A stretch of 64,000 nucleotides of DNA from Belnapia moabensis DSM 16746 (GTDB taxonomy: Bacteria > Pseudomonadota > Alphaproteobacteria > Acetobacterales > Acetobacteraceae). Below, piece by piece: positions 37,676-40,681 of the stretch. The translations under genes and the position numbers were made by a program. The stretch covers positions 124,001 to 188,000 of the forward strand of contig NZ_JQKB01000006.1 of assembly GCF_000745835.1 (NCBI RefSeq). Reading direction: 5' to 3'. The notes under the pieces were generated by a model. That model saw only the letters and a program-made list of their open reading frames with translations. It had not been told where the DNA came from and searched no databases. How positions within the stretch are numbered: the first letter of the stretch is position 1; each line of letters begins with the position of its first letter.

Positions 37676-39190
37676 CTACTCCGCCGCCTGGGCCGGGGGC
37701 ACAGGACGCTTGTTCCGCTTCGCCTCGTAGAGCGCCGCATCGGCCCTGGCGATGGCCTGCTCCATGGCCGTTGCATCCCGGGGCATCAGGGCGACACCCA
37801 GGCTGCAGCCGAGACGGAGGCGCCCGACCTCGGTCGGCACGCCTTCGCGCAGCATGAAATTGAGCCGCATGCCGACCTCGCGCGCCGCCGCCTCCACCTT
37901 GTCGGGCGGACCGACGAGGCAGAGCAGGAACTCGTCGCCGCCGAGCCGCACCGCCGCATCCTCGCCGCGCAGGTTCTGCAGGAACCAGGTGCCAATGCCG
38001 CGCAGCACGTCGTCGCCGGCCGCATGGCCATGGGTGTCGTTGATCGGTTTGAAGCCGTCGAGGTCGAGGGCGACGACGGCGCAGCCCTGGTCGAGCGGCG
38101 GCAGCGCCTGCTGCCAGGCGGCGAAGCCGGCGCGGTTGAGCAGGCCCGTCAGCGGGTCATGCCAGGCCTGGTCTCGAAGCTGCTCGAGTTGCCGGGCGAC
38201 ATCGCCGCCGCCGCCAAGCACGCGCTGGACGACGGAACCCATCCGCCCGGCATAGAGGCCAGCCAGCGCGCCGCCGACCGCCGCGATGCCGAGCGTGCCG
38301 CAGCCGAGCCAGAGGCCGAAGGACCAGAGCGGGGCGAGCACCGTGGCGCGGTCGCGCTGCGCCACCACCACCCAGCCGAGATTGGGCCGGTCCGGCGCGC
38401 CTTCCGCCCGGGCATAGCCGAGGATGGCGGGGGGCTGGCCGGGCAGGTTCGCCTCGCGCCAGCCGCCGTCGGGGCGCTCGGCGGGCCAGGGCTTGCCGCG
38501 CTCGGCCTCTGGGCCGAGCAGCACCAGCCCGTCGGCGCCGAGCACGCGCAGGACCGGGGCGGGCTGCCAGGGGGCGAGGGCTGCCATCTCGCGCCGCACC
38601 GCCTCGGCCCAGCGCCAGGTGAGGTGGCCGGCGACGACGCCGATCAGCTTGCCATCCGCCGCATGCACCGGCGCGGCGGCATCGACGAAATAGGCATCCG
38701 CGCCGCCGCCCTGGTCTTCCGGCAGGAGCTTCGCCAGCATCACCGCCGGGTGGACGTCGCCGAGGTGCAGGCCGGCGAGGGCGGGGCGGAACCAGGGGCG
38801 GGCGGAGACATCGACGCCTTCCAGCAGGCCGCCGGTCGCGGCGATGACGCGGCCATCGGCGCCGGTGAAGCCGATCCAGGAGAAGGTGGGAGAACGGGCC
38901 TTCAGGTCCTCGAGCAGGCGGCGGGCCGTGGCGGGCTCCGCCGGTTGGCGTTCGAAGGCCTCGAAACGGGCGAGCATGCCGACGTCGCGCGCCCAGTCGG
39001 CGAGGCCGGAATCGAGGCGCTGCGCCATCACCCCGGCAAAATCGGCAAGGCGCGAGCCGTCCTCCTCTATCAGCCGCTGGCGTTCCGACCGCAACAGCAA
39101 GGCGGAGCCGGCCAGGCCGAGCAGGGCGCACAGGGCGGCCACCGCCAGGCCGTGCCGCCAACCGGGACCGAACCAGCGAGGAAAGGACAT
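37676..39190 (-). CDS. Membrane-bound diguanylate cyclase with periplasmic sensor domain
   Basis: A 504-residue c-di-GMP synthase. N-terminal helix (LAVAALCALLGLAGSALLL), a periplasmic dCache/CHASE-like domain (about 45-285, with the PWFRPALAG and VAGHLTW motifs), second helix (LWSFGLWLGCGTLGIAAVGG), short coiled linker and a GGDEF domain (from about 340) with intact active site RLGGDEFLL, and DLDGFKPINDTHGHAAGDDVL as substrate site. No clear RxxD inhibitory site was located. Upstream on the same strand lie a terminator hairpin and a tiny ORF, then the liv operon, so attenuation or read-through from liv is possible. GGAG precedes ATG 39190 at wide spacing. Confidence 0.93.
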   Translation of the reverse strand: MSFPRWFGPGWRHGLAVAALCALLGLAGSALLLRSERQRLIEEDGSRLADFAGVMAQRLDSGLADWARDVGMLARFEAFERQPAEPATARRLLEDLKARSPTFSWIGFTGADGRVIAATGGLLEGVDVSARPWFRPALAGLHLGDVHPAVMLAKLLPEDQGGGADAYFVDAAAPVHAADGKLIGVVAGHLTWRWAEAVRREMAALAPWQPAPVLRVLGADGLVLLGPEAERGKPWPAERPDGGWREANLPGQPPAILGYARAEGAPDRPNLGWVVVAQRDRATVLAPLWSFGLWLGCGTLGIAAVGGALAGLYAGRMGSVVQRVLGGGGDVARQLEQLRDQAWHDPLTGLLNRAGFAAWQQALPPLDQGCAVVALDLDGFKPINDTHGHAAGDDVLRGIGTWFLQNLRGEDAAVRLGGDEFLLCLVGPPDKVEAAAREVGMRLNFMLREGVPTEVGRLRLGCSLGVALMPRDATAMEQAIARADAALYEAKRNKRPVPPAQAAE

Positions 39191-39343: not shown

Positions 39344-39375
39344 AAAGGCCCGGGCGGTTTCCCACCCGGGCCTTT
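39344..39375 (-). terminator. Strong hairpin terminator between the small ORF and the GGDEF gene
   Basis: Perfect 11-bp stem AAAGGCCCGGG / CCCGGGCCTTT with a 10-nt loop. On the minus strand the stem ends in TTT and is followed by CGCATATCTTTCTTC, a T-rich but interrupted tail. It is 34 bases past the stop of the 25-codon ORF and about 150 bases before the GGDEF start, i.e. it ends the liv/small-ORF transcript or attenuates the GGDEF gene. Confidence 0.75.
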
Positions 39376-39409
39376 CCATTGCTGCAGCCGTTGCCGGCCT
39401 AGGCAGGGC

Positions 39410-39487
39410 TCAGGAAGCCATCTCCGCAGTGGCGGTGACGATGATCCAGGCCGCAGGCAGGGCACGCGGCATATGGCAATGAGACAC
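39410..39487 (-). CDS. 25-codon ORF with full-length Shine-Dalgarno
   Basis: GTG start, 25 residues beginning MSHCHMPRALPAAWII and ending VTATAEMAS. It is too short for usual gene finders but is preceded by GAAAGGAGGTGGTCC, complementary over 15 bases to the 3' end of 16S rRNA apart from one G-U. It has three consecutive branched-chain codons (Ile, Ile, Val) and a Trp before them. The gene lies 69 bases downstream of the livK stop, after a UUCG-loop hairpin, and is followed by a strong terminator. It could be a real small protein, or a leader peptide controlling the downstream GGDEF gene. Not recognised from any named family. Confidence 0.6.
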   Translation of the reverse strand: MSHCHMPRALPAAWIIVTATAEMAS

Positions 39488-39505
39488 TGGACCACCTCCT
39501 TTCGG
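39488..39505 (-). promoter_or_regulatory. Extended Shine-Dalgarno, near-complete anti-SD match
   Basis: On the minus strand GAAAGGAGGTGGTCC occupies 39503-39489, one base before the GTG of the 25-codon ORF. The complement of the usual 16S 3' end is GAAAGGAGGTGATCC, so 14 of 15 bases pair perfectly and the other forms G-U. Such a long match is well beyond what initiation needs and could cause stable 30S binding or stalling; its function is inference. Confidence 0.7.
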
Positions 39506-39528
39506 TTGTTGACGACGACAAGGAAGAT

Positions 39529-39546
39529 GGGCCCCCGAAGGGACCC
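39529..39546 (-). other. UUCG-loop hairpin after livK
   Basis: On the minus strand GGGTCCC TTCG GGGGCCC is a 7-bp stem (one G-T) closed by a UUCG tetraloop, ten bases after the livK stop. No T-run follows, so it more likely stabilises the 3' end of the liv mRNA or acts as a partial terminator/processing signal between livK and the small ORF. Confidence 0.5.
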
Positions 39547-39556
39547 TTTTCAAGTC

Positions 39557-40681
39557 CTAAACCTGCGAATAGTCGCCGTTCTTCCAGACATAGAAGACGT
39601 AATCCGGCACGGTGACATCGCCCTTCCTGTCGAAGGCGATGTCGCCGAGGACGGTCTGCCAGGGGCCGCTCGCCTTCATCGCGTCGGCGACCTTCTTGGC
39701 GTCGACGCTGTTGACCTTGGTCACGGCGGCGGCCCAGATCTGCACGGTGGCATAGGTATAGAGGACGTAGCCCTCAGGATCGATGTTCTTCGCCTTGAAA
39801 GTCTGCACGACGGAGGCGGCGCTGGCGCGCTTGCGCGGGTCGCTGCTGAAGGTCATCAGCGTGCCCTCACCGGCGGCGCCGGTGATCTGCCAGAAATCCT
39901 TGGTGACGAGGGCGTCGCCGCCGATCATCGTCACGTTCATCCCTTGCTCCTTGGCTTGGCGCAGGATGAGGCCGGCCTCGGTGTAGTAGCCGCCGATATA
40001 CATCACCTCGATGCCGGAGCTCTTGAGGCGGGAGACGAGGGCGTTGTAGTCGCGCTCGCCCGGGTTGTAAGCGGCGTAGATCGTCTCCTGCACGCCGCCG
40101 GCGTTCAGCGCCTTCTTGGTCTCGTCGGCGAGGCCCTTTCCGTAGGCCTGGTTGTCGTGGAGGATCGCCACCTTCTTGCCCGGAAAGGTGCGGGCGATAT
40201 AGGTGCCGGCGATCTGGCCCTGCTGGTCGTCCCGGCCGCAGACGCGGAAGGTGTTCCAGGCGCCGTCATCGGTGAATTTCGGGTTGGTGCTGGCCGGGCT
40301 GATCTGCAGCACGCCCTCCTCCGCGTAGACCTTGCTGGCGGGGATGGAACTGCCGGAGCAGTAGTGGCCTGCGACCATCGCCACCTTGCGGCCGGCGAGC
40401 TGGTTGGCGACGGAGACGGCCTGGCGCGGGTCGCAGGCATCGTCGGCGATCTCAAGCGCGAGCTGGCGGCCGAGCACGCCGCCCTTGGCGTTGAGGTCGG
40501 CGACGACCTGTTGGGCGCCGGTCTTCATCTGCTCGCCGGCGGCGGCGTTGGAGCCGGTCATCGGCCCGGCGCAGGCGATGCGGATGGGCCCGCTGCCTTG
40601 GGCGAAGGCCGGGCGGATCAGGGCCGGGCCAGCCAGCGCGATGCCGGCGGTGCCGGCGATGAGTCCCCTGCGATTGAGCAT
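39557..40681 (-). CDS. livK: Branched-chain amino acid ABC transporter substrate-binding protein
   Basis: Periplasmic receptor of a high-affinity Leu/Ile/Val-type importer, 374 residues. A signal with twin arginine ([20 protein letters not shown] ending AFAQ) precedes the type-I periplasmic-binding fold: [72 protein letters not shown] and the C-terminal [14 protein letters not shown]. Last gene of the liv operon, 84 bases after livF. The actual ligand could be another amino acid or aromatic acid. Confidence 0.94.

Follow-up and report, generated by a model that had tools for sequence, protein, structure and literature searches.

What is the short element that lies between livK and a GGDEF gene on the minus strand of the Belnapia moabensis DSM 16746 genome: a leader that controls the gene behind it, or an RNA gene in its own right? 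The window, which here means the whole stretch of 64,000 nucleotides analysed, carries livK (39557-40681) on one side of the element and the GGDEF gene (37676-39190, start codon at 39190; Pfam GGDEF, E 1.7e-31) on the other. The elements that an initial annotation had described exist in the sequence, and the order it gave, a Shine-Dalgarno sequence (SD), an open reading frame (ORF), a terminator and then the GGDEF gene on the same strand, was confirmed. Its SD of 15 nt with one G-U was found as GAAAGGAGGTGGTCC (39503-39489, minus strand), complementary to the 3' tail of 16S rRNA, and its ORF of 25 codons runs, also on the minus strand, from a GTG at 39487 to a TGA at 39410, encoding the peptide VSHCHMPRALPAAWIIVTATAEMAS. 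The terminator is present as well, as an intrinsic hairpin followed by GCATATCTTT (39376-39343, minus strand), with a stem of 15 pairs by scan and not the 11 reported.

The element as a whole is a member of a catalogued family, RF01867 (CC2171), a Caulobacter small RNA (sRNA) in Rfam; the family itself was already known. Covariance-model search with cmscan placed the match at 39511-39346 on the minus strand (88.5 bits, E 7.4e-17, gathering score 75), covering the model from position 1 to 159 of 159, and over all 159 positions sequence and structure are the same, with no difference at the family level. The closing helix and terminator of the RF01867 consensus structure are both present in the window, and the helix is supported over 62 loci. 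Since AAAGGAGGTGRTCC occurs only once in the 6.7-Mb assembly, at the SD of this RNA, and the whole element lies above the Rfam cut-off, the locus is not a product of chance. An overlapping match to ar35 was rejected, its 19.8 bits lying below the cut-off of 45, at chance level. The initial annotation knew of no described case; the RNA is in Rfam, and no described function for CC2171/RF01867 was found in the literature searched. CC2171 is presumably one of a set of 27 ncRNAs of Caulobacter dating from 2008. Of those 27, CrfA alone had been characterised further, according to the accessible text of PMC5988900. In the accessible parts of two other papers, PMC5596092 lists a sequenced product of 215 nt from a region of Mesorhizobium attributed to RF01867, and PMC11701678 names the family. 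Literature searches on the RNA's sequence, on peptide strings and on ribosome decoys found no description of such an RNA. It is a real and conserved RNA, and an unexplained one.

How widely is it distributed? A pattern consisting of AAAGGAGGTGRTCC, 0-2 bases and RTG matched 51 of 289 alphaproteobacterial genomes, exactly once in each positive genome, and the reversed pattern gave no match in the genomes listed from this class sample. In an overlapping sample of 299 genomes from the phylum, 51 of 86 Alphaproteobacteria (a hand count from the listing) matched once each, and none of the 213 other genomes did. At least three of the class-sample matches resemble other genes with a strong SD. Loci L161, L173 and L239 are such genes, with AAAGGAGGTGATCC before the start codon and, in two, a signal-peptide-like beginning; no RF01867 match was found in their genomes. 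RF01867 itself was found at E<=0.001 in 61 of the 289 class genomes, in 10 of them above the cut-off, and in 44 of the 51 pattern-positive genomes. Among relatives, the RNA occurs in all eight same-genus genomes, the window's own included, and in 8 of 16 other genomes of the family. In named genomes, a stricter pattern that forces GTGTCTCA gave at least 120 matches; the 80 titles listed are mostly Caulobacterales, Hyphomicrobiales and Acetobacteraceae/Rhodospirillales, with one Sphingomonadales and one Ramlibacter, and by the titles among the matches listed the family ranges over several alphaproteobacterial orders. The Ramlibacter-titled contig (L103), a betaproteobacterial name with a Caulobacter-like copy, probably reflects a binning error. 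Most loci were gathered by SD patterns, and because the stricter one forces GTGTCTCA, it partly builds in the GTG starts (132 of 145 loci), the peptide beginning MSH and the opening bases of CATTG. Where the pattern allows both starts, as in the class sample, 22 of the 51 are GTG and 29 ATG; TTG starts, invisible to the pattern, also exist among the RF01867 matches.

These loci carry a long complement to the 16S tail. Neither a covariance-model match to 16S nor a 3' end by pattern was found in the window's assembly, so same-genus genomes supplied the tail, three of which (G563, G565 and G567) contain the 3' end ...CTGGATCACCTCCTTTC / GAACCTGCGGCTGGATCACCTCCTTTC. Against it, the pairing of the window's SD extends from 15 to 17 nt through the following two bases (AG), with a predicted duplex energy of -32.4 kcal/mol; the mean over 162 nonredundant loci is -31.9 kcal/mol, compared with -17.1 kcal/mol for the best internal partner of the SD. 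The G within the window's GGTGGTCC, absent from the other seven same-genus loci, still pairs, as G-U. The initial annotation had proposed looking for the SD in other genomes, and it is kept there, both in the 51 of 289 Alphaproteobacteria and in all 30 of the best RF01867 matches, where 14-19 nt can pair with the 16S tail (G-U allowed), including three loci (L008, L014 and L017) that lack the exact SD pattern. Furthermore, of 20 additional RF01867 matches, either overlooked by the pattern or second matches, 12 carry a complement of 11-17 nt before a start codon, in some cases TTG. As 30 of 30 and 12 of 20 matches carry it, the complement is not only an effect of the search pattern. The other eight have at most 9 nt of SD-like complement and resemble chance matches, so that some of the 61 RF01867-positive genomes are chance hits. 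Shorter complements occur as well, of 14 nt in L008 and L017 and of 11-12 nt in L261, L263 and L271.

The ORF behind this SD keeps its frame. Its length is 14-33 codons, with a mode of 25, across 145 loci. In none of the 162 nonredundant loci does frame 0 contain a stop before codon 13, compared with 66 and 44 in the other two frames, and in 123 of them its stop falls at codons 19-27. Counted by triplets, stops at nt 15-42 number 0 of 1458 in frame 0 and 69 and 19 in the other frames, and at nt 57-90 they number 140 of 1782 in frame 0 and 31 and 44 in the others. These 162 loci were picked without a stop rule, none was excluded because 60 codons passed without a stop, although two reached the end of their contigs, and a set of 136 loci shows the same picture. 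Moreover, ORF length is equal in 42 of 48 close pairs and differs by 3 in the other 6, and in 64 of 79 listed occurrences the motif CTGGA is 35, 38 or 41 nt downstream of the start, in steps of three. Frame and stop have both been kept in evolution, as is characteristic of a translated ORF.

Codons 3-5 of this ORF pair with the bases that abut the terminator on its 5' side, forming a closing helix; in the window its arms are CATTGC (39481-39476, codons 3-4) and GCAATG (39382-39377), both on the minus strand. Co-changes can be followed by eye, from CATTG/CAATG to CATAG/CTATG, CACCG/CGGTG, CATGG/CCATG and others. A terminator was detected in 154 of the 162 loci, and 86 of these contain the exact complement to the first five bases of codons 3-4, against 41.8±3.3 with swapped partners. 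Among the 70 loci without CATTG, the exact partner is present in 13 against 1.3±1.1 swapped, and one base further in, in 22 against 1.8±1.4; it is missing from 11 of 84 CATTG loci and from 57 of these 70 in the codon-3 register (48 of 70 one base on). An alignment of 62 rows, hand-chosen from 110 candidates, gives the helix a covariation of 0.287, compared with 0.128±0.013 for shuffled and at most 0.120 for slid versions, and 6 of its 7 pairs change on both sides. RNAalifold returned for the same alignment the terminator and a 3-pair helix in the SD region, without picking the long-range helix. Pseudoknot-free folding predicts the closing helix with a mean of 0.84, and above 0.5 in 62 of 72 CATTG loci that had been preselected for a downstream CAATG; folded alone with some upstream bases, the window instead pairs its SD internally and lacks the closing helix.

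The internal partner of the SD, present in many loci, is a partial copy of the 16S tail within the ORF. In the window this anti-SD mimic is CTGGATCATC (39449-39440, minus strand), which complements the RNA's own SD and overlaps ATCATCGTC, the codons for Ile-Ile-Val. Across the 136-locus set, which is dominated by loci with AG after the SD, CTGGA(TC) occurs in 81 loci against 15.3 expected, and CTGGAT in 38 against 3.3. CTGGA tracks the AG, with 77 of 114 AG loci carrying it versus 5 of 46 loci with other bases. With other bases in that place the mimic sometimes changes to match, CAGGA being found in 3 of 5 TG loci versus 2 of 114 AG loci, but in many cases it does not (a match in 5 of 20 GA loci and 1 of 14 AA loci), and the covariation test for the mimic is modest (14.1 for own partners against 13.2±0.3, 4 of 1000). 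Several ATG-start loci in the 62-row alignment contain, by eye, GCAGCCTC/T or GCAACCTC at a later point in the ORF. The mimic crosses the closing helix, which means that the two together would form a pseudoknot and are otherwise mutually exclusive. The 16S complement, the frame constraint, the closing helix and the mimic would together be a new anatomy for the CC2171 family; for RF01867, no description of the complement, the constraint or the mimic was found in the accessible portions of the literature.

What could such an RNA do? The second alternative offered by the initial annotation, a small independent mRNA with 30S subunits as its partner, appears to fit best. We tentatively propose, giving the idea slightly less than an even chance, that the CC2171 RNA acts independently, engages 30S and switches between two forms, one closed and one loaded with ribosomes. 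A 30S subunit would bind the RNA through the 16S 3' tail, loading on the start codon would open the closing helix, and ribosomes moving to the stop codon would prevent the mimic from masking the SD again. The balance between the two forms would be set by free 30S subunits, the output would be either the holding of 30S subunits or the exposing and hiding of the RNA's 3' half, and the peptide would be a by-product. Comparison among loci establishes the pairing potential, the frame constraint and the closing helix, on which the binding, translation, toggling and cellular effect proposed here would be built. As to the two states that we infer, folding rarely gives SD-mimic pairing (predicted above 0.5 in 7 of the 72 CATTG loci), and the maximal SD might serve only to give high translation.

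In a bolder form, which we consider doubtful though worth stating, the RNA would be a ribosome regulator resembling 6S RNA: a single-copy RNA would capture free 30S subunits through the complete 16S tail, and its translated, peptide-free ORF, closing helix and self-made anti-SD copy would make it a two-state sensor of free ribosomes. 6S RNA binds RNA polymerase, and if the decoy reading is true, the likeness would lie in an RNA mimic of a natural substrate occupying a central machine; we know of no sequence relation between the two. If 30S engagement is real, the RNA would sense or titrate ribosomes, and would do so in a class of bacteria whose genes may seldom rely on an SD. For C. crescentus, the accessible text of PMC4117421 puts SD use at 24.6 % of CDSs. 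The same portion of that source reports ncRNA regions as untranslated in ribosome profiling, which counts against translation of the RNA, although it also speaks of two earlier ncRNAs as translated. Extended SD motifs in S. aureus (PMC13009471, as far as its accessible text describes them) are alike in that SD-aSD pairing reaches past the canonical motif close to the start, also at GUG, but they comprise two additional pairs on protein-coding mRNAs, whereas here the pairing reaches up to 17 nt and no peptide is conserved.

A first alternative, which we hold to be unlikely, is that the RNA is a dual-function or ordinary base-pairing sRNA with its seed in a loop or in the 3' region, where SD and ORF would load ribosomes for stability or timing. 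RNAs of the SgrS/RNAIII type exist, the Rfam class is sRNA, and bases before and within the terminator are conserved too; yet the 16S complement and start region are the most conserved part, containing all 17 invariant columns of the 62-row alignment (partly fixed by the search pattern, though the best RF01867 matches carry the complement as well), and loop sequences vary strongly.

A second alternative, quite unlikely in our judgement, assigns the function to a micropeptide (MSHCH..., often with Trp) produced at high output from the strong SD. Start, frame and stop are kept as it would predict, and nearly every locus encodes Ser at codon 2, each of the four TCN codons being in use; MSHC is a common N-terminus among the 145 loci, although partly forced by the search pattern. 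Against it, changes are spread evenly over codon positions 1, 2 and 3 (60/749, 63/749 and 62/748 in 43 pairs), while livK, the control, gives 23/10/63, 21/11/62 and 21/18/68 in three pairs, and synonymous fractions are nearly equal in frames 0, 1 and 2 (.244,.228 and.223 in 168 pairs). The N-terminal residues, moreover, shift together with changes in the helix (MSSE, MSHG, MSHS). Purifying selection at the amino-acid level was not detected on the ORF in either the 43 or the 168 pairs, with livK as control, and the peptide conservation that the initial annotation had suggested searching for did not appear, the amino acids not being kept across 145 peptides. Because frame and stop are kept and codon-position changes are even, the frame seems to be selected and the peptide not, beyond what the RNA imposes, as our main proposal has it. 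If true, the ORF would be a plain example of one that selection keeps for its translation rather than for its peptide. Constraint on the RNA itself also speaks for that proposal: between the window and L214, one of 131 nt has changed and none of 25 third positions, while in livK the two have diverged at 63 of 351 third positions; two other same-genus loci are less constant, with 8 (L213) and 15 (L218) changes in 131. In L218, from a genome 75 % complete, the SD is kept, codons 3-4 and the CTGGA motif are changed, and the locus is perhaps decaying or poorly assembled.

Could the G/A-rich SD instead serve as a sponge for anti-SD-type sRNAs (aR8/SisA-D, CCUCCUCCC RNAs), as CrfA does in Caulobacter? 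We consider this distinctly improbable. Such sRNAs and a G/A-rich sponge are known in Alphaproteobacteria according to the accessible text of PMC12559287 and PMC3927594, the latter serving, with PMC11005374 (likewise available in part), as a source for comparison. CrfA, as PMC12559287 describes it in its accessible part, resembles the CC2171 RNA: both are independent sRNAs of Alphaproteobacteria, and both contain an SD-like stretch rich in G and A. CrfA, however, pairs with UUUCCUCCCU sRNAs (SisA-D), whereas in the CC2171 RNA the stretch complements the 16S tail and is followed by an ORF start. The predicted energies of the consensus SD are -8.7 kcal/mol with aR8 and -9.9 kcal/mol with CCUCCUCCC, compared with -32.8 kcal/mol for the 16S tail; the UUUCCUCCCU core offers 5 pairs versus 17, which is not a strong complement, and the conserved GAAA and GATC flanks match 16S and not the aR8/CCUCCUCCC cores.

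The proposed 30S-engaging RNA is best read as an independent gene with its own promoter and terminator. In 143 upstream regions aligned on the SD, a T-rich -35 peak lies about 50 bases before the SD (-50..-47) and a weak peak around -28..-24, and a CAAC-type leader is conserved. The corresponding elements in the window would be a -35 element CTTGAA (39554-39549) and a -10-like element CATCTT (39529-39524), both on the minus strand; a consensus promoter scan called none at the latter. A terminator-like hairpin follows the ORF in 140 of 145 loci by a permissive script. The UUCG hairpin of 7 bp that the initial annotation had placed before the SD is present (hairpin scan, 39546-39529, minus strand), and because it is located in the spacer between these two putative promoter elements, it probably lies outside the RNA transcript; it is possibly the livK terminator. 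By eye, a GC hairpin with different letters occupies its position in 5 of 7 other same-genus loci (L214-L217 and L219).

Neighbouring genes were listed by an ORF picker based on GC at third positions, not from annotation, and the scan covered 87 of the 117 proteins downstream and 84 of the 119 upstream, those left out by hand being mostly short, partial or near-duplicate. The nearest downstream gene in the 145 loci lies on the same strand in 58, on the opposite strand in 70 and is uncalled in 17, so a conserved same-strand target for a leader peptide is absent; the 87 downstream proteins hit 170 different Pfam families, with at most 5 proteins sharing a family and 2 carrying GGDEF, the window's own included. 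At all eight same-genus loci livK lies upstream of the RNA, and a GGDEF gene adjoins it at three (the window, L216 and L217); none was found within the fetched flank of about 1.5 kb at four (L213, L215, L218 and L219). Likewise, the 145 peptides contain, by eye, no conserved codon run for a sensed amino acid: the Ile-Ile-Val run is indeed encoded here, by ATCATCGTC, and is not conserved among them. The leader-peptide attenuator of the initial annotation, which would make the GGDEF gene respond to Ile/Val or ribosome status, is therefore hardly credible, with order and strand in the window in its favour but with varying neighbours, close relatives that keep the RNA without a nearby GGDEF gene, and an unconserved Ile/Val run against it. 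The adjacency of RNA and GGDEF gene is an accident of position.

Some smaller observations concern the surroundings and variants of the RNA. At L214, where the RNA differs by its single base in 131, all that is left of the GGDEF gene is two short homologous pieces, which points to decay. Domains of the RNase R type are the commonest downstream (CSD2 in 5 and RNB in 4 of 87), possibly from related genomes only, and periplasmic binding proteins are the commonest upstream family, at 12 of 84 loci. Finally, a 14-codon version of the ORF occurs in L036 (MSHSKRCHLAGAAR), L100, L107, L137 and L205-L210, with Afipia and Rhodopseudomonas among those named; these loci contain CACCTC and, judged by eye, pair differently, CCTCGCTGG with CCAGCGAG.
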